Shown: piece by piece, positions 9,146 to 40,802 of the stretch
Layout: each line of letters opens with the position of its first letter
Position numbering within the stretch: position 1 is the first letter of the stretch
DNA from: Alkalibacillus salilacus
GTDB lineage: Bacteria > Bacillota > Bacilli > Bacillales > Alkalibacillaceae
Direction: 5' to 3'
Length of the DNA stretch: 45,461 nt
NCBI RefSeq assembly: GCF_030812915.1
Contig: NZ_JAUSTQ010000015.1
Coordinates: 1-45,461 of the forward strand
The notes under the pieces: generated by a model
The model's input: only the letters and a program-made list of their open reading frames with translations
What the model was told of the DNA's origin: nothing
The model's database searches: none
Translations under genes and position numbers: made by a program

Positions 9146-9279
9146 TGAGTCAAGTGATCCGAAATATGATTCAAGACTTCTCAAATTTGAGTCAAGCAAA
9201 CTCAAAAGTGACGCAACGTCTTTTAATTTTGAAGCAACACTTGTACAAAATGACGCAAGAGCTTTAAAATTTGACGCAA
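9146..9279 (+). repeat. seven-copy 21-bp periodic array
   Basis: The 8-mer TGA(C/G/T/A)(T/G)CAA starts at 9146, 9167, 9188, 9209, 9230, 9251 and 9272, exactly 21 bases apart each time, while the bases between vary. The array begins 9 bases after the SRAP stop codon and is in frame with it: read through the TAG, it would encode a degenerate seven-residue repeat around F-D/E-A/S up to a TGA near 9317. Either a coding-derived repeat fused to the SRAP gene and cut off by a stop, or a non-coding array with two-helical-turn spacing. Confidence 0.85.
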
Positions 9280-9321
9280 GTATAACTAAGAACATATCGA
9301 AGAAGGAAAATTCCTGATCAA

Positions 9322-9345
9322 AAGTAGTTCAGTTTTGGAATGCAA
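9322..9345 (+). repeat. solo copy of cassette left-end sequence
   Basis: AAGTAGTTCAGTTTTGGA at 9322 matches the terminal sequence seen at 9894, 15652 and 22302. The second, inverted half of the palindrome found in the other copies is missing or eroded here. It lies just upstream of the frameshifted lipoprotein gene, so that gene was probably cassette cargo. Confidence 0.65.
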
Positions 9346-9406
9346 TAGCGTAATTTGTCCCCTTATCGTGCAGATTAGTTGGTTAATCGACAAATGGAGT
9401 GTGAAG

Positions 9407-9746
9407 ATGAAGAGCTTAAATCAATATAAAATTTATGGTTTGTTCTTAATGATTTCTGTCTTTTTAGTTGGATGCTCAAATAGTGAGGACAGTATTGAGG
9501 TTGAGGGGTATGTTGTAGAGATTGAAGAGGATCGAATCTTTAGTTGTTGATAATATAACAGAAGATCGTTATGAACAATTGCAGGATCAAAGTGTTGAAG
9601 AGTTAAAGGAACAAGAAGAGGATTTAATCTATTTGGAGACTAATAGCTCAAATTTCACTATAGGAGATAAAGTTAAAGCCATAGTATCAGACATAGATAC
9701 ATCCTATCCAGCACAAGCTAATCCAGATCATATTAACAAAGAATGA
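9407..9746 (+). pseudogene. frameshifted lipoprotein, DUF3221 (YobA)-like
   Basis: ATG 9407 follows GGAG at a good distance. The N-terminus has a hydrophobic signal with lipobox LVGC, then VEGYVVEIEEDRI and a premature TGA at 9547-9549. The downstream frame resumes at once with LVVDNITEDRYEQLQDQSVE and ends in FTIGDKVKAIVSDIDTSYPAQA, the pattern of DUF3221 lipoproteins such as YobA. One extra T in CGAATCTTTAGTT (about 9533-9545) explains the break; removing it restores about 112 residues. Either a decayed gene or a sequencing error. The family function is unknown to me. Confidence 0.7.
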
Positions 9747-10029
9747 AAGACATGCCTTGCTTAACAAACGTCCCAGTTAATTGACTAGAGGCTAAAGTGT
9801 TTCGTTCAGAAGTGCAAACAGACAAACACACATAATTGTCATAAACATTGTTGAAGTAGAACATTCCATGCTAAAGGGACTTAGAAATAATCTAAGTAGT
9901 TCAGTTCTGGAGTACAGAATTGCAATTTTTACCCTTAATTGAACTACTTTCTACATATTAAATTGTTATTTAAAATGTATGGTAATTTGTAATGCATATT
10001 GTTTACATATTCGATGGTAATTTAGGATA

Positions 10030-10067
10030 ATTAACATTTATATGGTAAAATAAGTTAAATAATGTTA
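10030..10067 (+). promoter_or_regulatory. recurring promoter-like leader (copy 1)
   Basis: ATTTATATGGTAAAATAAG carries an extended -10-like TGGTAAAAT and lies about 60 bases before the cargo start. Near-identical leaders occur at 36097-36134 (+), 15776-15805 (+), 17801-17830 (-) and 10847-10869 (-), each ahead of an unrelated gene. The -35 region is not conserved enough for me to place. Confidence 0.55.
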
Positions 10068-10123
10068 CTTAACTAACTGGTAGCAATGTTTATAAAGAAA
10101 ATTTTAAATGGAAGGTGAATATT

Positions 10124-10324
10124 GTGGGGAAAGGAATTTGGTATTTATTAGTTCTAATAATTGTATCTACTATACTTTTTTTAATTGTAGCTAATATATT
10201 TAATACAAATAACCCAACGGTAGCGTATCTTCTTTCAATGATTGTAAGTCACCTAATATTAGATAAAAATGAATGGCTTATTGACTCTATAATAAGAGGA
10301 TTAATATGGGGTTCCAGACAATAA
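10124..10324 (+). CDS. small membrane protein, cargo of cassette A
   Basis: A 66-residue protein with a long hydrophobic helix at about 5-27 and a second weaker hydrophobic stretch at about 32-46, then a charged tail. I chose GTG 10124 since GGAAGG lies 8 bases upstream; a GTG three codons earlier overlaps that site. It is the only gene in the cassette and ends 60 bases before the cassette's first hairpin. I do not recognise the family; the role is unknown. Confidence 0.6.
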   Translation: MGKGIWYLLVLIIVSTILFLIVANIFNTNNPTVAYLLSMIVSHLILDKNEWLIDSIIRGLIWGSRQ

Positions 10325-10383
10325 AATATTGTAATTAATGGGGCGTTAGTTCAATAAAAGCAATGGAGAATTTGAAAAAGTAT

Positions 10384-10419
10384 GAGCATTTTCCAATTAG
10401 GAATTTGCTCTTTATTTTT
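10384..10419 (+). terminator. cassette A cargo terminator
   Basis: GAGCA...TTCC pairs with GGAA...TGCTC around a short AATTA loop, then TTTATTTTT. The same hairpin stands after the cargo of the module at 39300 (39322-39357) and, eroded, at 22925. Confidence 0.7.
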
Positions 10420-10551
10420 GTTGTTGAAATTGCATCAGTTTTTGCACGTGGTTTTGCAGGACAACAATAATTATTGTAGGTTTTCAAATTAGGTTCTATT
10501 TCCCTCTGTAAATAACTATTCAAAATCAAATGAACATTGATATAACAATGA

Positions 10552-10592
10552 AAAATGAGCGTTGAATTACTATGCAATTCAACGCTCATTTT
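10552..10592. repeat. perfect 17-bp hairpin in the cassette 3' module
   Basis: AAAATGAGCGTTGAATT (10552-10568) and AATTCAACGCTCATTTT (10576-10592) are exact complements around a 7-base loop. Homologous but less perfect hairpins lie at about 23055-23093 and 39488-39530. It may be a bidirectional terminator or a structural element of the cassette end. Confidence 0.75.
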
Positions 10593-10675
10593 ATAATGGA
10601 TTTTTATTGTTTGTACTCCAAAACTGAACTACTTAGAAAAAATCTAAGCCCTTTTTTGTAATTTCTAAGGATCGC

Positions 10676-10795
10676 TCAATCAAGATTACCAAGTAACATT
10701 TGAGCTGAGTAGTATCCAGAAAAGACAATCATAGTGCTAATGATGACAAGAAAACAATATTTTAAAAACGGTCTATGATCCATTAAATCAAGCAT
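10676..10795 (-). CDS. small single-helix membrane protein
   Basis: A 39-residue peptide with a basic N-terminus and one membrane helix (about 11-29), ending YYSAQMLLGNLD. AAGGAAGG lies 12 bases before the ATG at 10795; an in-frame TTG at 10807 would add four residues (MKKN). It sits behind the recurring promoter-like leader at 10847-10869, like other cassette cargo. No family recognised. The right flank of cassette A abuts its 3' end. Confidence 0.5.
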   Translation of the reverse strand: MLDLMDHRPFLKYCFLVIISTMIVFSGYYSAQMLLGNLD

Positions 10796-10846
10796 ATTTT
10801 TCTTCAACCTTCCTTATATAGATATTCTAATCATTAACCCATCTTC

Positions 10847-10869
10847 TTTAACTTATTTTACCATATAAA
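10847..10869 (-). promoter_or_regulatory. recurring promoter-like leader (copy 2)
   Basis: On the minus strand this reads TTTATATGGTAAAATAAGTT, the same leader as at 10030, and points to the small membrane protein gene starting at 10795. No cassette terminus is visible beside it. Confidence 0.5.
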
Positions 10870-10906
10870 ATTTCCTTTTCTAGTCCTGATTGCTTCCTTA
10901 CTTAAA

Positions 10907-15571: not shown

Positions 15572-15651
15572 GGAAGACGAATAAACCTATACAAACCAAG
15601 GTTTATGACCTAATAATTAAAAGTAAGAGAAAAGTAAAAAATACTGTAGGT

Positions 15652-15707
15652 AAGTAGTTCAGTTTAGGGGTGCAAATTGTAATTTTGCACCCCTAATTGA
15701 ACTACTT
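15652..15707. repeat. 56-bp palindromic cassette left end (copy B)
   Basis: AAGTAGTTCAGTTTAGGGGT and its inverted partner CCCCTAATTGAACTACTT form a near-perfect hairpin, followed by TTTTT. It is the best-preserved copy of the left terminus at 9894 and 22302. Here it stands 80 bases after groEL and, with its T run, may also terminate groESL transcription. I could not find a matching right end for this copy. Confidence 0.8.
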
Positions 15708-15775
15708 TTTGCGTATGAAAATGTATGATGATTTGATATGTGAGTTGTATAATTACTTGAGAAATTTTTATGATA

Positions 15776-15805
15776 ATAACATATATAGTAAAATAAGTTG
15801 AGGAA
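15776..15805 (+). promoter_or_regulatory. recurring promoter-like leader (copy 3)
   Basis: ACATATATAGTAAAATAAGT is the same leader as at 10030, about 60-80 bases ahead of the lipoprotein gene at 15857. Confidence 0.5.
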
Positions 15806-15856
15806 CGTCTTTCAATTAACTAGAGAGTAGAATTGAAGGAGAGGTGAGAACCGGAA

Positions 15857-16321
15857 GTGGGGGATAAAGTGAAGGTAATTAAAATACTACTGTTATTTTC
15901 ATTTGTTATTTTCGGTGCATGTAGCGGGGATCAACATCTTACATTTGAAAAGAAGGAAGATGCAGAACAAGAAATTGGTGAATTTAAAACGCCTGCAATG
16001 CCAAAGGGATATGTAATTAAAAAAATAACGTATGATCATGATGGCTTTACACACCCAGAAACTAAAGTGTTTTACGAAAAGGAAAGTCATAGCATTACGT
16101 TTATGATTGCATCATCATGGTTTGATAATAGACCTTCGGAGAAGATTGAAAACGATAAAATAGCTGACATGGTTTGGATTTCAAAAGATAAAGATTATGT
16201 ATTAAAGTGGAGAAGTTCCGACAAGCAAAGTTATAAATATCTATTCACAAAAAATGAAAAAGACAAAGAATGGTTGATTTCTATTGCAGAAGGCTATTCA
16301 ACTAACGCCCACGTTACTTGA
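15857..16321 (+). CDS. putative lipoprotein, cassette-associated
   Basis: A 154-residue protein with a basic N-terminus, a hydrophobic segment and lipobox FGAC (Cys near residue 22), then a soluble domain with aromatic and charged residues. The pattern GYVIKKITYDHDG...KVFYEKESHSITF...MVWISKDKDY weakly resembles DUF4367-type extracellular domains; I would not assign it. GTG 15857 follows AAGGAGAGG by about 11 bases; a GTG four codons later is another option. It lies behind the palindrome at 15652 and the recurring leader, in the layout of cassette cargo. Confidence 0.65.
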   Translation: MGDKVKVIKILLLFSFVIFGACSGDQHLTFEKKEDAEQEIGEFKTPAMPKGYVIKKITYDHDGFTHPETKVFYEKESHSITFMIASSWFDNRPSEKIENDKIADMVWISKDKDYVLKWRSSDKQSYKYLFTKNEKDKEWLISIAEGYSTNAHVT

Positions 16322-17694: not shown

Positions 17695-17800
17695 GGGATC
17701 ACATTCCTTTTCTAATTGAAAATCTGTAAATTATCCCTTCTCTACTAAAGTATAATTTTCCTTCTTAAACTAAACTGCTTTGTAAGTTGAATAACACTCT

Positions 17801-17830
17801 TTAACTTATTTTACCATATAAATGTTAATC
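17801..17830 (-). promoter_or_regulatory. recurring promoter-like leader (copy 4)
   Basis: On the minus strand it reads ATTAACATTTATATGGTAAA and onward, identical over about 30 bases to the leader of cassette A at 10032-10061. It points to the frameshifted HD gene about 110 bases away. Confidence 0.6.
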
Positions 17831-18108
17831 ATCTTGAAATTCCCTTATTATATTTATACTATTTGTATTACAAATAGCCTTACATTTTAGAAATCGGGTA
17901 AGACAAGACTTAACAATGCTTGTTTTAGTAATTTTCATTATATTGAAGATGAGTGGAAAATAATTAATTATAATCAAACTTCTTATCTAGAATAGAATTT
18001 TGAAGGTGACTTAATATAGAAGAATGGTGCATATTATTTTCATGACTTGTTACATTAGTTAACAAAAAATAGACAAAAACGCTACAGTTTTTGACTTGAA
18101 CTCTGTAG
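17831..18108. other. AT-rich intergenic stretch
   Basis: I see no gene with a ribosome site, no strong hairpin and no copy of the local repeats here. It separates the decayed HD/HAD pair from the unclear reading frame at 18109. Confidence 0.5.
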
Positions 18109-18294: not shown

Positions 18295-18371
18295 TTATAT
18301 AAGTTGTATTGATTACTTTAGATATATTTGGTAATATTTATAATCAAATATTGAAAATTTCATATTTATGC

Positions 18372-18640
18372 AATGAAGAGGACAGTAGGTATTTAAATTC
18401 TTCACAGAGAGCTCCGTTTGCTGAAAAGGAGTAAGAATTGATTATTGAATCAAACCTTAGAGCATCACGTTGGATCAGGTTATGTGATAGCGTGACGGTA
18501 GCTTCCGTTATAAAGTAGATACATTTAATTGTATCAGTAAAGGTTAATTATAATTAATTAATAAACTGGGGTGGCACCGCGATGACTCGTCCCTAAGACA
18601 TGAGAATGTCTTAGGGACGAGTTTTTTATTTTATAAAGAA
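18372..18640 (+). promoter_or_regulatory. T-box riboswitch, probably tRNA-Ser responsive
   Basis: The T-box motif GGGTGGCACCGCG lies at 18569-18581. A strong terminator follows: ACTCGTCCCTAAGACAT (18585-18601) pairs with ATGTCTTAGGGACGAGT (18605-18621), then TTTTTTATTTT. The AG-box AGAGAG is at 18406-18411. In the Stem I 3' strand, GAA-TCA-AACC puts the specifier at 18450-18452 as UCA (Ser); AUC (Ile) one base earlier is the rival. The variable antiterminator base is C (18575), which pairs with discriminator G; tRNA-Ser has G73 and tRNA-Ile has A73, so two features agree on serine. Uncharged tRNA would switch the MFS gene at 18675 on. Confidence 0.9.
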
Positions 18641-18674: not shown

Positions 18675-19907
18675 ATGAAACCCAAAAGTCTATTAGAGAG
18701 CTGGAAATACCCTTCAATTTTATTATTTGGAATAGGTGTTTCCAATGTGGGTGATTGGATTTACTTAATTGCATTAAATCTTATTGTACTTGATATGACT
18801 GGTTCTCCACTTGCTGTGTCAATCCTTTATATTTTAAAGCCATTGGCAACACTTTTTACAAATGGGTGGGCTGGTAGTGTAATAGATAGGTTGAATAAAA
18901 GAAACTTAATGATAGGACTTGATGTGTTCCGAGCATTTTTTATAGCCATATTGCCTATACTTCCGACAGTGTGGGCAATATACAGTTTAGTTTTTATTAT
19001 TAACATGGCCAGTTCAATGTTTGAACCAACCTCAATGACTTACATAACTAAACTTATTCCTAGAGACCAAAGGAGACGTTTTAATTCATTAAGAAGCTTG
19101 ATAGACTCTGGAGGTTTTTTAATTGGTCCGGCGATAGCAGGATTAATGTTTATGAATGGTACTCCTTTTTTCGCAATATATATGACTGCCATTGCGATAT
19201 TTATATCGGGATTAATAACTACCATAATGCCGAACTTAGAAAAAGGTAGAGCAGCAGATATTGAGGAAAGTAAATTTAGTTTAAATTTGCTAAAAAGAGA
19301 TTGGCAAGTTGTATCCAGCTTCAGTAAGGCCCATGTATTTACTATGACTATATACTTGCTTTTTGGCTGTATGATGGTAATGGCAACCGCCATTGATTCC
19401 CTAGAGGCGGCTTTTGCTAAAGAAGTACTTTCATTAACGGATAGCAAATACGGGTTTTTAGTTAGTATAGCTGGTGCAGGCATTGCTGTAGGAGCCTCAG
19501 TTAATGCTGTTTTCGCAAAAAAATTCACGACTTCTATGCTTTTAGGTTTTGGAACTTTACTTGTGTCAGTGGGATATATTATTTACGCATTCTCTAGTAC
19601 ATTTATAGTTGCTGCTATAGGTTTTTTCGTATTATCGTTCTTCCTTGCATTTGCCAATGCTGGTTTCCATACTTTCTATCAGAATAATATTCCTGTTGAA
19701 GTTATGGGGAGGGTTGGAAGTGTTTATGGTTTAATCGAGGCTTTTCTTATAATTGTTGTGACTGCTCTATTTGGGTTTGCAGCTCAATTAATTTCAATAA
19801 AATTAGTTGTTATTATTGGAACATTAATGATGCTAGTAGTTACATTAGTGATGTTTGTATTCAACCTGCAGTCCTCAAAGTTCAAGTTTACTTCTACAGA
19901 ACCCTAA
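18675..19907 (+). CDS. MFS transporter under T-box control
   Basis: A 410-residue membrane protein with about 12 hydrophobic segments and the motif A form AGSVIDRLNKRNLMIGLD in the loop after segment 2. The overall look (GVSNVGDWIYLIALNLIVLD at the N-terminus) is that of the MFS branch containing macrolide and siderophore exporters (MefA/EntS-like). The ATG is preceded by GAAGGAGTTTAGTT. The leader is a T-box, so expression should rise when the cognate tRNA, probably tRNA-Ser, is uncharged. That points to amino-acid-related traffic rather than drug efflux, but the substrate and direction of transport are unknown. Confidence 0.88.
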   Translation: MKPKSLLESWKYPSILLFGIGVSNVGDWIYLIALNLIVLDMTGSPLAVSILYILKPLATLFTNGWAGSVIDRLNKRNLMIGLDVFRAFFIAILPILPTVWAIYSLVFIINMASSMFEPTSMTYITKLIPRDQRRRFNSLRSLIDSGGFLIGPAIAGLMFMNGTPFFAIYMTAIAIFISGLITTIMPNLEKGRAADIEESKFSLNLLKRDWQVVSSFSKAHVFTMTIYLLFGCMMVMATAIDSLEAAFAKEVLSLTDSKYGFLVSIAGAGIAVGASVNAVFAKKFTTSMLLGFGTLLVSVGYIIYAFSSTFIVAAIGFFVLSFFLAFANAGFHTFYQNNIPVEVMGRVGSVYGLIEAFLIIVVTALFGFAAQLISIKLVVIIGTLMMLVVTLVMFVFNLQSSKFKFTSTEP

Positions 19908-22225: not shown

Positions 22226-22301
22226 AATACTAGCTTTGACGATTAAAACGATAAAGAACGAAATTTTCCGGGATAAACAGAAAAGATCTTAGTTATTTGA
22301 T

Positions 22302-23135
22302 AAGTAGTTCAGTTTTGGAGTGAAAATTGCAATTTGCCCTCTTAAATGGACTATTTTTTTGCATATGAAATTTTAGACTGAAATGAAAAAACTAAATTAA
22401 TTAAGTGGGTGCGGTTATGGAGGTAAGGTTAGAGAAAGCAACTGATAAAGATGCACAGTCTATTTTTGACATTCAAGTTAAAGCTTTTATGCCACTTTTG
22501 CATAAGTATAAAGACTATGAAACTAACCCAGCATATGAACCTGTTGAAAGAGTGATTACGAGAATAAATAATCCTGATGGTGGTTTTTATAAGATATTAG
22601 CTGATAACAAACTTGTAGGTGCTATCTGCATTTTATGGAGGGAAAACTTACAATTCTGGATAAGCCCGATGTTTATTCTACCTTCTTATCAAGGGAAAGG
22701 AGTAGCCCAGAAGGCTATAACATTAATCGAAGAACTGTTTCCTCAAGCAATTACTTGGGAGTTAGCTACAATTTTAGAAGATGATAGAAATTGTTATTTA
22801 TATGAAAAAATGGGCTATAACAAAACGGGAGTTAGTAAAAAGATAAACGATAATGCAACACTTATTTATTATAAAAAAACTTGTTAACGTTCTTATTCTA
22901 AATGGTGGCAGTACTTGAGGAAAAGTGAGCGATTTCCAATAAGGAATTTTCTTTTTTGTAGGTCTTCGTTAATTATTTTGACTTTGCTAATTTGGCTACA
23001 TTTCCTGTATAAATAACAAATCAAAATATAAACGAACATTGATATAACAATGAAAATGAACATCAAATTGTTATGTAATTTAATGCTCATTTAATAATAC
23101 ATTTTCATTATTTGTACTCTAGAACTGGACTACTT
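22302..23135 (+). mobile_element. 834-bp cargo cassette carrying an acetyltransferase (copy C)
   Basis: The left end (22302-22357) is the same palindromic terminus as at 9894 and 15652: AAGTAGTTCAGTTTTGGAGT, then an inverted half ending GGACTATTTT. The right end (23112-23135), TACTCTAGAACTGGACTACTT, is its inverse. The 3' module (22925-23110) aligns with those at 10384-10610 and 39320-39545, including AACATTGATATAACAATGAA and the final hairpin. Flanks CTTAGTTATTT (left) and CTTAAGTTATTT (right) are similar but differ by one base insertion. No transposase inside. Confidence 0.7.
22417..22887 (+). CDS. GNAT acetyltransferase, cargo of cassette C
   Basis: A 156-residue GNAT-fold acetyltransferase. 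The acetyl-CoA loop is SPMFILPSYQGKGVAQKAI (about 86-104) and the C-terminal motif is CYLYEKMGYNKTG near 130. ATG 22417 has GGGTG upstream; an in-frame GTG at 22405 is the alternative. It is the only gene between the cassette ends, so it appears to have travelled as cargo. The substrate is unknown. Confidence 0.85.
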   Translation: MEVRLEKATDKDAQSIFDIQVKAFMPLLHKYKDYETNPAYEPVERVITRINNPDGGFYKILADNKLVGAICILWRENLQFWISPMFILPSYQGKGVAQKAITLIEELFPQAITWELATILEDDRNCYLYEKMGYNKTGVSKKINDNATLIYYKKTC

Positions 23136-23284
23136 AAGTTATTTTTCTCCGCTTTTAATCCCGTTTTTCAGACTTCTCGTCATATTTTTTATTCAAGCAA
23201 TGTTCTTAGTTAAAACGTTTTACTTTTATTCTTTTTATACAATATCCATAAATAAGGTAATAACATTAATGTAGCAGGGACTAT

Positions 23285-38658: not shown

Positions 38659-38786
38659 GTGAATGCACATAGTAGAGACATAAAAACGGTGTTTTTATTA
38701 GGAAATAGGAAGTAAGGGGTTTAGGGTTCATTCAACTAACGATTATTGGGTATTAACACTTGAGTTATTACACAAATTCACAAAGC

Positions 38787-38836
38787 AAATAGCACAATGT
38801 TAATAGCTGTTGTCAATGTACTATTTCCTATGTGGA
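38787..38836 (+). repeat. 50-bp repeat, left copy
   Basis: Inverted relative to 40648-40697; 44 of 50 bases match when reverse-complemented. Each copy is itself an imperfect palindrome (AAATAGCACAATGTTAA against AAATAGTACATTGACAA). The two copies bracket 1.9 kb with three small genes. Confidence 0.8.
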
Positions 38837-39027
38837 TTTAAATCTTATTTGCGATGCTGATTTTTTAAAAACAAGAAGGTAATTGTATTTTTTATGTTAA
38901 AATAAATGTAAAATTTGTGGAAGAACGCATTTAAACTAATGGGCAGGTCCTTTAAATCCCATAGTTGTTATTGGAGTAGCGGGTGGTGTTACTTCATGCA
39001 ATTTTTAAGTATAGGGGAGGTTGCGTA

Positions 39028-39282
39028 ATGATAAATGAGTGTGCAATTTGTCCGTGTTTTAATAAGATGAACAATGCGATGAAAGTCTTGATTACTACTT
39101 TAACTGTTATTATTTTTGGAGTATTATATTATTTTTTAATACCTCAAGTAATGCCAGGTGATTCTGGTTTTGTGATTTTAATATTCACGCCTTACTTAAT
39201 TGGAGGTCTTTTATTTGGTTTGGGATTGTTTGGTCTTGCTTTTGGGATAAGCAAGTTTTGCGAATGGATAAAAAGAAAGTGA
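39028..39282 (+). CDS. small membrane protein with N-terminal Cys cluster
   Basis: An 84-residue protein starting MINECAICPCF, with three cysteines, followed by two or three hydrophobic segments (about 19-37, 43-60, 60-76) and a basic end. ATG 39028 is preceded by GGGGAGG at 7 bases; the frame is open further upstream but without a ribosome site. It is followed by the same 3' module as cassettes A and C, so it is probably cassette cargo. No family recognised. Confidence 0.6.
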   Translation: MINECAICPCFNKMNNAMKVLITTLTVIIFGVLYYFLIPQVMPGDSGFVILIFTPYLIGGLLFGLGLFGLAFGISKFCEWIKRK

Positions 39283-39299
39283 TTTGATTTAAATTAACG

Positions 39300-39570
39300 G
39301 GAACGTTAGTTGAAGAAGGGTGAGCATTTTCCGAAATGGAATTTGCTCTTTTTTTGTTGGTGAAATTGCATTAGTTTTTGCACGTGATTTTGCAATTCTT
39401 CATTAATTATTTGGGCTTTGGAAATCGGGTTGCATTTTCCTGTGTAAATAACTACTCAAAAAGTAAGAAAACATTGGTATAGCAATGAAAATGAGCACCA
39501 AATTGCTATGCAATTCAACCCTCGTTTTATACAATTTATCTATTGTTTGTATACTAAAACTGAACTACGT
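39300..39570 (+). repeat. cassette 3' module with right end (copy D)
   Basis: CGTTAGTTGAAG, the hairpin GAGCATTTTCC/GGAATTTGCTC with its T run, TGAAATTGCATTAGTTTTTG, the TGTGTAAATAACTACTC segment, the second hairpin and the terminus TATACTAAAACTGAACTAC follow in the same order as in cassette A (10340-10634). The left end of this copy is not found upstream of the gene at 39028; the 50-bp repeat at 38787 lies there instead. Confidence 0.75.
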
Positions 39571-39744
39571 ATATGAACTTTTTTCAAATATATCAACCGT
39601 GATTGGATTTAACGTTTACATCCATCGTTAACATCACCCTTCATTCCATAAAAATCAACCAATGATGTCTATGTATCCTTTTTTAAACCAAAAGGATTAT
39701 GTTACGTTAAGATAAACATAACACTAAAACTGGAGGTGATTTAG

Positions 39745-39921
39745 ATGGACAATGCTTATCTTCCATTAACGATGCTCGGTCTTATGTTAGTCATGATCGC
39801 TTTAGGCTTTCTTGATGGAGTCGGTCTTATTCAATATCTTGTAGCAGGCGCGGGTGTCGTTTTATCTGCAGTGGGCACTTTTAAGTTACTCCGTCATGAG
39901 AGAAAGGAAAAAGAAACGTAA
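39745..39921 (+). CDS. small membrane protein, 58 residues
   Basis: ATG 39745 has TGGAGGTGATTT before it. Two hydrophobic helices (about 6-22 and 28-46) are followed by a basic tail LLRHERKEKET. A strong terminator follows at 39970. Expression signals are convincing; the function is unknown and no family comes to mind. Confidence 0.72.
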   Translation: MDNAYLPLTMLGLMLVMIALGFLDGVGLIQYLVAGAGVVLSAVGTFKLLRHERKEKET

Positions 39922-39969
39922 TGCAATAGTATCGTCATGTTAGGGATAGTATCCTTTCGATGAAATAAA

Positions 39970-39998
39970 ACGCTTGGGTAATCCAAATACCCAAGCGT
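39970..39998 (+). terminator. terminator of the 58-residue membrane protein gene
   Basis: ACGCTTGGGTA (39970-39980) and TACCCAAGCGT (39988-39998) pair perfectly; ACTATTTTATATTTTC follows. Confidence 0.82.
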
Positions 39999-40059
39999 AC
40001 TATTTTATATTTTCTTGTAGAACAAAAGCACACGATAGTTGAATATGTATGAAGTATTA

Positions 40060-40470
40060 TTAACCTTGAAATGTATAAGGAGATGATGCTTTAAGTAGGC
40101 TATTAACACCATTAGGATGATAAGGCATTAAATCATTAGCTCTTTGTATGTTTACCCATTCAATTTCTGAAATTTCATCTTTATCTATAATTGAAATTTC
40201 TCCTTCGATGACTTTTGCTTTAAATGTTATAAATAAAGCGTGATGACCGTTTTCTTTAAACATTGCTTCATTGACAGCTATAATTTCACCAACCTCAATT
40301 GTTAAATTTGTTTCTTCCTTAACCTCTCGAATAACTGCTTCTTCTAAAGTTTCCCCTTGTTCCACTGCACCACCAGGAAGAGACCAACTTCCACCCTTGT
40401 TATTAACCATAAGGATATTATTCTCATCTTCCTTATAAATAAACGCATATGCTACATCCACTCTAATCAT
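40060..40470 (-). CDS. NUDIX hydrolase
   Basis: A 136-residue NUDIX enzyme that would hydrolyse a nucleoside diphosphate derivative. The NUDIX box runs from GGAVEQGETLEEAV to REVKEETN (about 33-55) with all key Gly, Arg and Glu residues. GGAGCGAGTAAGAA precedes the ATG. Family members range from MutT-like sanitising enzymes to sugar-nucleotide hydrolases; this one is small and single-domain. It lies between the two 50-bp inverted repeats. Confidence 0.9.
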   Translation of the reverse strand: MIRVDVAYAFIYKEDENNILMVNNKGGSWSLPGGAVEQGETLEEAVIREVKEETNLTIEVGEIIAVNEAMFKENGHHALFITFKAKVIEGEISIIDKDEISEIEWVNIQRANDLMPYHPNGVNSLLKASSPYTFQG

Positions 40471-40647
40471 TTCTTACTCGCTCCTATCTATTTCAGGGTT
40501 AAATTATCAAAATTATAACAGTCTGTTATTCAACTATATTGCGCCGTTAGTTTAAGCACGTTCTTTCACAAATTCGATATTTATTTTAACATAAAATAAA
40601 TATTATCCTCTGGGTTTAAAAGATCAACATTGGAAATAACATACAGG

Positions 40648-40697
40648 TTCACATAGGAAAAAGCACATTGACAACAGTTATTGACATTATGCTATTT
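40648..40697 (-). repeat. 50-bp repeat, right copy
   Basis: Starts TTCACATAGGAAAAAGCACA and is the inverse of the copy at 38787-38836. Ten bases further on is a cassette-type right end. Confidence 0.8.
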
Positions 40698-40706
40698 CGA
40701 ATGTTT

Positions 40707-40728
40707 CACCACCGAAACGGAACTACTT
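40707..40728 (+). repeat. diverged cassette right end
   Basis: CACCGAAACGGAACTACTT corresponds to the right terminus CTCCAAAACTGAACTACTT of cassette A with a few changes. No left end facing it was found. Confidence 0.5.
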
Positions 40729-40802
40729 AATGTTATCCCTGGTTTTTTTCATATAGGTAAGGCCAGCAACGGTTGTTACAGCATTCCTATGGTTATGTAA
40801 AC

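Follow-up and report, generated by a model that had tools for sequence, protein, structure and literature searches.

The window, by which we mean the whole stretch of 45,461 nucleotides analysed here, contains a short cassette with inverted ends, a putative gene and no transposase. We consider it highly probable that this cassette and a second one in the window are non-autonomous mobile insertion cassettes (MICs) of the sparsely described Tn7491 family, which would be moved into terminator dyads by a transposase of approximately 650 aa. The first cassette, element 1, and its target comprise the following parts.

9873-9883, forward strand: left arm of the split terminator-like target, AAAGGGACTTA.
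9884-9892, no strand: target duplication, left copy, GAAATAATC.
9893-10635, forward strand: element 1, a complete cassette of 743 bp with the left end (LE) on the left, inverted ends and a duplicated flank.
9894-9949, forward strand: LE hairpin, formed between the inverted-repeat tip and an inverted copy located further in.
9950-10117, forward strand: conserved leader adjoining the LE.
10124-10324, forward strand: putative cargo, a doubtful, hydrophobic ORF of 66 aa.
10468-10635, reverse strand: right end (RE) module, including a hairpin at 10552-10592.
10636-10644, no strand: target duplication, right copy, GAAAAAATC, identical to the left copy at 8 of 9 bases.
10645-10657, forward strand: right arm of the split target with a T-run, TAAGCCCTTTTTT.

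The sequence-only reading had placed this cassette at 9894-10634, between a 56-bp palindromic left end and an inverted right end. The palindrome was recovered at 9894-9949 by an inverted-repeat search, the right end is indeed inverted (10612-10634), and the limits held apart from one base missing at either end. Three copies of Tn7491 with different flanks share a core that starts with T and stops with A, and the outermost T and A of element 1 were placed by analogy with these cores. A 17-bp flanking repeat had likewise been proposed. The flanks match at 94% (9879-9896 and 10631-10648) and are palindromic as claimed; however, they do not form a single repeat unit, but a 9-bp duplication within a palindromic target, composed of GAAATAATC/GAAAAAATC, the terminal T and A of the element, and CTTA/TAAG. 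The latter part is palindromic target that equals the element tip by chance. When rejoined with one copy of the duplication, the target AAAGGGACTTA-GAAATAATC-TAAGCCCTTTTTT yields a terminator-like hairpin followed by a T-run.

Within element 1, the RE consists of a single tip followed by a hairpin unlike that of the LE, and the T-run of the LE has a length of 3, under the cut-off of 4. A Pfam search assigned no family to the 66-aa cargo ORF, and the longest ORF, 84 aa in length, runs antisense across the 3′ module. What speaks for the 'promoter-like leader' of the sequence-only reading is its conservation; promoter scans revealed no excess over shuffled sequences, with 1 site versus 5.7 in element 1 and 2 versus 4.0 in element 2. 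Between the two convergent genes that flank 9259-10902, the window comprises 1644 bp with two cassette ends, an accumulation spot; in the relative G005, the interval between these genes measures 63 bp and contains a terminator-like hairpin. As this closest relative lacks the whole block, an exact empty site for element 1 was not found there.

The second cassette and further ends are distributed over the window as follows.

9322-9365, forward strand: solo partial LE immediately upstream of element 1.
15651-15841, forward strand: LE and leader, with no RE found; a 154-aa ORF lies downstream (15857-16321).
17763-17891, reverse strand: relic of an LE leader without the tip (E 4.8e-18).
22301-23136, forward strand: element 2, a complete cassette of 836 bp, with both end modules in common with element 1.
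22405-22887, forward strand: cargo of element 2, a GNAT acetyltransferase of 160 aa (PF00583, 7.1e-12).
39404-39570, reverse strand: RE module without a recognisable LE close by.

Element 2, which spans 22302-23135 without its terminal bases, is flanked on both sides by AGTTATTT (22291-22298 and 23137-23144), that is by 8 identical bases, the remainder of the duplication having decayed. Its hairpins are weak: the LE stem comprises 6 Watson-Crick pairs only, and the terminator scan returned 0 sites. G005 matches the window at 92% across 22381-23229 and shares the RE and the right flank, but not the LE. Since cassette 2 has the same right flank in this relative, its insertion is old; an exact empty site was not found in G005. 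Two further observations concern the end of the window, where 38770-40730 shares ends and flanks with L062:2321-3198 (G000:C17), so that the two resemble copies of one block, and where an inverted repeat was seen by eye at approximately 38780 and 40690. In addition, a T-box leader (18364-18597, 120 bits) is located upstream of a 410-aa ORF at 18675.

Several of these ends are solo or decayed, element 1 carries an ORF without a family, the insertion of element 2 is old, and the genus lacks a transposase. All of this would fit dead relics, with the genes being ordinary neighbours rather than cargo that moved together with the ends. Yet the genes are enclosed by paired ends with duplicated flanks and the identical order is present in other genera, and we regard relics of this kind as quite unlikely.

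The ends recur far beyond the window. The 18-bp tip gave 29 matches in the own genome when up to 3 mismatches were allowed, versus 11 with the reversed control, and the 276-bp 3′ module recurs within this genome as well. The 22-bp tip yielded 95 matches in 29 of 60 genomes, the own genome included, at up to 3 mismatches (4 control matches); at up to 2 mismatches it was found in 60 of the 397 genomes of the order and in 32 of 136 genera (5 control matches). An exact tip scan of named genomes returned 29 stretches, mostly from Bacillaceae-type genera as judged by title, and two from lactobacillus-type assemblies. A script that pairs inverted ends with matching flanks delivered 26 pairs. Removal of the duplicates L174, L176 and L182 and of the doubtful L153 left 22, and removal of the Tn7491 copies L161 and L168 left the 20 elements used for site statistics. 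For comparisons of ends, interiors and orientation (n=24), we added L060, L099, L105 and L108, which were paired by orientation and spacing and had failed the duplication filter; hairpins and subterminal motifs were counted in 25 elements, namely these 24 and the Tn7491 copy L161.

The 24 elements range from 0.7 to 7.9 kb. The LE is common to 202 of 276 pairs and the RE to 183, whereas interiors, defined by trimming 200 and 290 bp and requiring at least 80 bp of match, are shared by 5 of 276, with the smallest elements leaving little interior; three of these 5 pairs share the transposase region. Duplications measure 9-10 bp, at times up to 11. When the transposase is excluded, 47 of 54 ORFs of at least 80 aa run from LE to RE. 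Of the 7 opposed ORFs, three are germination genes in L106 and one is the doubtful antisense ORF of element 1, while L060, L117 and L180 contribute one apiece; L061, L100, L181 and L185 contain no ORF of this length. A Pfam family was assigned to 7 of 10 encoded proteins, including GNAT, an ECF sigma factor (in two elements) and the GerA/GerB/GerC germination set. The idea that gene-carrying cassettes devoid of a transposase form a family with a constant order of LE, cargo and RE, put forward from the window alone with a copy at 22302 holding an unrelated gene, was thus upheld: element 2 combines the GNAT gene with both end modules of element 1, and end searches and the 24-element comparison extend the order across many genomes. 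That the family captures genes was not substantiated, as no capture event was seen.

With regard to multi-gene elements, nested insertion was rejected as their source, since none of the 24 elements contains internal end remnants (E 0.01). L106:1584-9445 (G028:C73) is a full-length member with the whole GerA/GerB/GerC germination-receptor set and a transposase; germination genes could spread in this way. L101:1504-6382 and L180:1682-7317, from different genomes, each carry an ECF sigma factor and an adjoining membrane or anti-sigma-like gene.

Short cassettes with structured ends and 47 of 54 ORFs in one direction could also be expected of integron-like cassettes, in which site-specific recombination takes place at the hairpin. 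The inverted terminal repeats and the duplications of 9-10 bp at differing targets contradict this idea, which we consider exceedingly improbable.

The ends led to a known transposon, as the tips in the window are identical to the published inverted repeat of Tn7491, TAAGTAGTTCAGTTTTGGAGTACAAAA, at 25 of 27 and 26 of 27 bases. According to the available part of PMC10763498, Tn7491 is a dfrG transposon for which the inverted repeat and a 9-bp duplication have been published, and the dfrG transposon was first seen in Tn6198 of Listeria monocytogenes. In the literature searched, the name Tn7491 and a 19-base piece of the tip occur only in this source. In the three plasmid records that were read, a protein of the 646-648-aa type adjoins dfrG between family ends. 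Published accounts differ here: mobilisation of dfrG has been ascribed to IS257 in the abstract and to an IS256 unit in the introduction of PMC4923244, in the sections accessible to us; the ends in the three plasmid records favour Tn7491 as the carrier of dfrG there. The 9-bp duplication of the Tn7491 family is present at element 1 (8 of 9 bases identical), and neither the window elements nor G000, the own genome, encode the 650-aa protein. Because this protein is absent, the window elements count as non-autonomous members of the family by their ends alone.

In three relatives (L101, L106 and L180), an ORF of 646-648 aa lies within paired ends flanked by duplications, which makes its product the likely transposase of the family. 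The L101 and L106 proteins are 91% identical, and the Tn7491 protein is 65.7% identical to that of L101. No Pfam family was assigned to the 646-648 aa protein, the only match being an unrelated repeat at E 0.14-0.17. The NCBIfam IS1 model matched the L101 protein at E 5.9e-5 and 23.1 bits, below the cut-off of 100, and a weak IS1 match was obtained for 10 of 10 aligned members (best E 1.4e-6). A marginal profile match to transposases of approximately 350 aa with an IS1-type N-terminus (E 1.1e-4, probability 56%) extends over no more than the zinc/HTH part and the beginning of the core. Four acidic residues, D277, D423, D425 and E577, are invariant; picked by eye, they could provide a DDE triad. 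The sequence-only reading had called the ends unlike those of ordinary DDE-type MITEs, which is at odds with the inverted ends, the duplications of 9-10 bp and the distantly IS1-like transposase candidate. A profile search of PDB sequences returned two irrelevant matches only (E 0.61 and 0.97), and the structure predicted from 5 sequences was too poor for use (pLDDT 29.7).

Relatives of the candidate transposase were found in 26 of 149 genomes. An RE-type end is located approximately 460-510 bp upstream of the transposase gene at 10 of 11 loci (L118-L128), and at 7 of 8 independent loci, L118-L120 being copies of training elements. L122 has no such end upstream of the gene, and the match at L126 is weak (E 0.019). 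On plasmids, the Tn7491 protein matched 114 records, 90 of them from Enterococcus; among the matches listed it is labelled 'hypothetical protein' or 'insertion element protein'. Distant relatives with 22-24% identity reside on Rhizobium and Acidovorax plasmids, among them L268 on the Acidovorax temperans plasmid pEP1, near parAB (23.5% identity over 91%). Moreover, the phage records OP328421.1, OP328422.1 and MN270274.1 (Staphylococcus, Streptococcus) match the transposase or a 95-residue piece of it, and prophages may carry the element. The candidate transposase was not detected in G000-G005, the six Alkalibacillus genomes searched. As the own genome lacks it, the cassettes were presumably moved in trans, and for want of a transposase in all six genomes mobility within Alkalibacillus is something we infer.

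Alternatively, the cassettes could be MICs that belong to an IS231/IS4-type element. The design known from Bacillus cereus is alike in its inverted ends, passenger gene, duplication and missing transposase, according to the part of PMC3913671 at hand. The ends in the window are, however, those of Tn7491, and for the protein that such ends enclose, Pfam gave no match and NCBIfam a weak one to an IS1-like model; an IS231/IS4 origin is therefore very improbable. The ends of IS231 also seem to differ from those of the cassettes.

We then turn to the landing sites, with every terminator being predicted from sequence. Of the 20 rebuilt empty sites, 13 have a terminator-like hairpin that overlaps the duplication, in comparison with 149 of 1751 intergenic control positions from the same loci (8.5%; Fisher p 8.7e-10), and the duplication lies fully within the hairpin in 11 of 20, in comparison with 59 of 1751 (3.4%; p 2.1e-11). 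The 13 include L061 and L104, where the duplication falls into the T-run right after the stem, which places them outside the 11. Likewise, 11 of 20 sites reach a centred hairpin score of at least 18, as opposed to 2.1% of 2850 random and 3.7% of 1048 intergenic positions, and, with offsets of up to 4 permitted, 10 of these 11 have their dyad no more than 1 nt from the centre of the duplication. The seven sites that missed the terminator test are the one at 22302 in the window, L098, L100, L101, L103, L107 and L181; L101 resembles a terminator by eye, has a high hairpin score and counts as a miss as it fails the A/T-run rule. By reading, the three plasmid sites of Tn7491 consist of hairpins followed by T-runs. 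For one Tn7491 insertion, a natural pair exists: plasmid CP030461.1 contains an intact hairpin with its T-run, and NZ_CP014378.1 contains Tn7491 in the loop with ACTTTATCT doubled. The check for empty sites that the earlier reading had proposed was thus answered exactly for a plasmid insertion, but not for the window elements.

Taken together, these sites suggest that family members tend to sit in terminator hairpins. The same picture could result from survivorship, if insertion were near-random and copies lasted only in harmless spots 3′ of genes: 19 of 20 insertions have a flanking gene whose 3′ side faces them, and for 13 of 20 both flanking genes converge on the insertion (counts without a control set); the sample consists of standing insertions only. 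Such harmless spots would hardly explain why intergenic controls from the same loci reach just 8.5% and 3.4%, why the centre of the duplication and the dyad are at most 1 nt apart in 10 of 11 sites, or why the natural empty allele reveals an insertion into the loop. We therefore consider survivorship unlikely and favour targeting of terminator dyads. Terminator targeting by the Tn7491 family was not found in the literature searched; the available sections of PMC10763498 mention neither a terminator target nor cassettes, and locate an extra copy between convergent genes.

Hairpins are likewise present at the ends of the elements themselves. A stem of at least 9 Watson-Crick pairs was found at the LE of 23 and the RE of 24 of the 25 elements, and 19 of 25 at either end combine the stem with a T-run of at least 4, so that most elements have terminator-like hairpins at both ends. 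The RE stems vary in sequence with complementarity being kept. Covariation at the RE was weak (0.166 versus 0.137; 19 of 500 shuffles as high), in part because the alignment seems to misplace rows of the second RE type; covariation counts at the LE were not significant. The RE of the 4.8-kb element L060 (L060:7043-6996) has the same tip with a quite different hairpin behind it, as if the hairpin adjoining the tip were exchangeable. The subterminal motif RAAWTGYA occurs 44 times at the LE and 55 times at the RE, versus 5.3 and 10.8 in shuffles, a lead only, given that the sequences are homologous and some elements lack the motif.

Based on these data, we propose that full-length members encode, beside the RE, a transposase of approximately 650 aa that would bind to the inverted ends and catalyse movement of the cassette. 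The cuts would be placed 9-10 bp apart, preferably with the dyad of an intrinsic terminator midway between them, and the duplicated bases would correspond to the loop. Insertion would split this terminator, and the hairpins near both element ends could then act as terminators and stop transcription arriving from either side. Host transcripts from both sides would thus meet an inward-facing terminator, which would leave the cargo insulated and the insertion cheap and nearly neutral. The window cassettes would have been moved in trans, as MICs are.

It is possible, though we advance it tentatively, that the family represents a widespread, integrase-free gene-cassette system of Bacilli, in which the transposase lands on terminator dyads and the elements replace the terminator that they destroy. 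If so, the chromosome offers very many harmless ports among which genes travel in one preferred orientation, and the clinical dfrG transposon is one escaped member. Beyond the sequence-only reading, the analysis adds a terminator-like target, a partner protein and the connection to Tn7491. It brings together a family of environmental cassettes and a clinical trimethoprim-resistance transposon, and it provides a testable rule for landing sites, as well as a simple proposal for how a transposon could settle free of cost, by combining a terminator target with a terminator that it carries itself. If the ends and the 650-aa protein were covered by a curated model, many unannotated passenger genes would come to light.

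In comparison with known systems, the ends and the design of a passenger without a transposase have precedents; the target rule was not found in the literature searched, and the candidate transposase has no curated family model in Pfam or NCBIfam. MICs were first described as trans-mobilised by IS231A, which mobilises MIC231A1 of Bacillus cereus in trans (PMC3913671, in the part at hand). Elements 1 and 2 both have the inverted repeats, passenger gene, duplication and lack of a transposase that characterise MICs, the cargo of element 1 being uncertain. Like MIC231, they hold a passenger gene between inverted repeats, with a target duplication and no transposase; they differ from it in the transposase candidate, the hairpins near both ends and the terminator-like target and, it appears, in the ends themselves, and their own mobilisation in trans is presumed. 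IS1272/TnSha1 also targets hairpins, several of which are transcription terminators, and carries a passenger gene; it makes blunt cuts and partly deletes the hairpin without a target duplication, as stated in the accessible sections of PMC4923244. The window family resembles it in hairpin or terminator-like targets and in the passenger gene and, in contrast to blunt, duplication-free insertion, leaves duplications of 9-10 bp. With the IS1 family it has a weak N-terminal zinc/HTH similarity in common, but its protein comprises 646-650 aa and scores 23 bits against a cut-off of 100. The IS1 family presumably differs from the cassettes in its ends and usual length, too. The window elements resemble Tn7491, with which they share the inverted repeat, the 9-bp duplication, the layout of the RE module and an LE hairpin with a T-run, and whose duplications, at the three plasmid sites read, likewise lie in hairpin loops; unlike Tn7491, the window elements are devoid of the transposase and dfrG and carry other genes.
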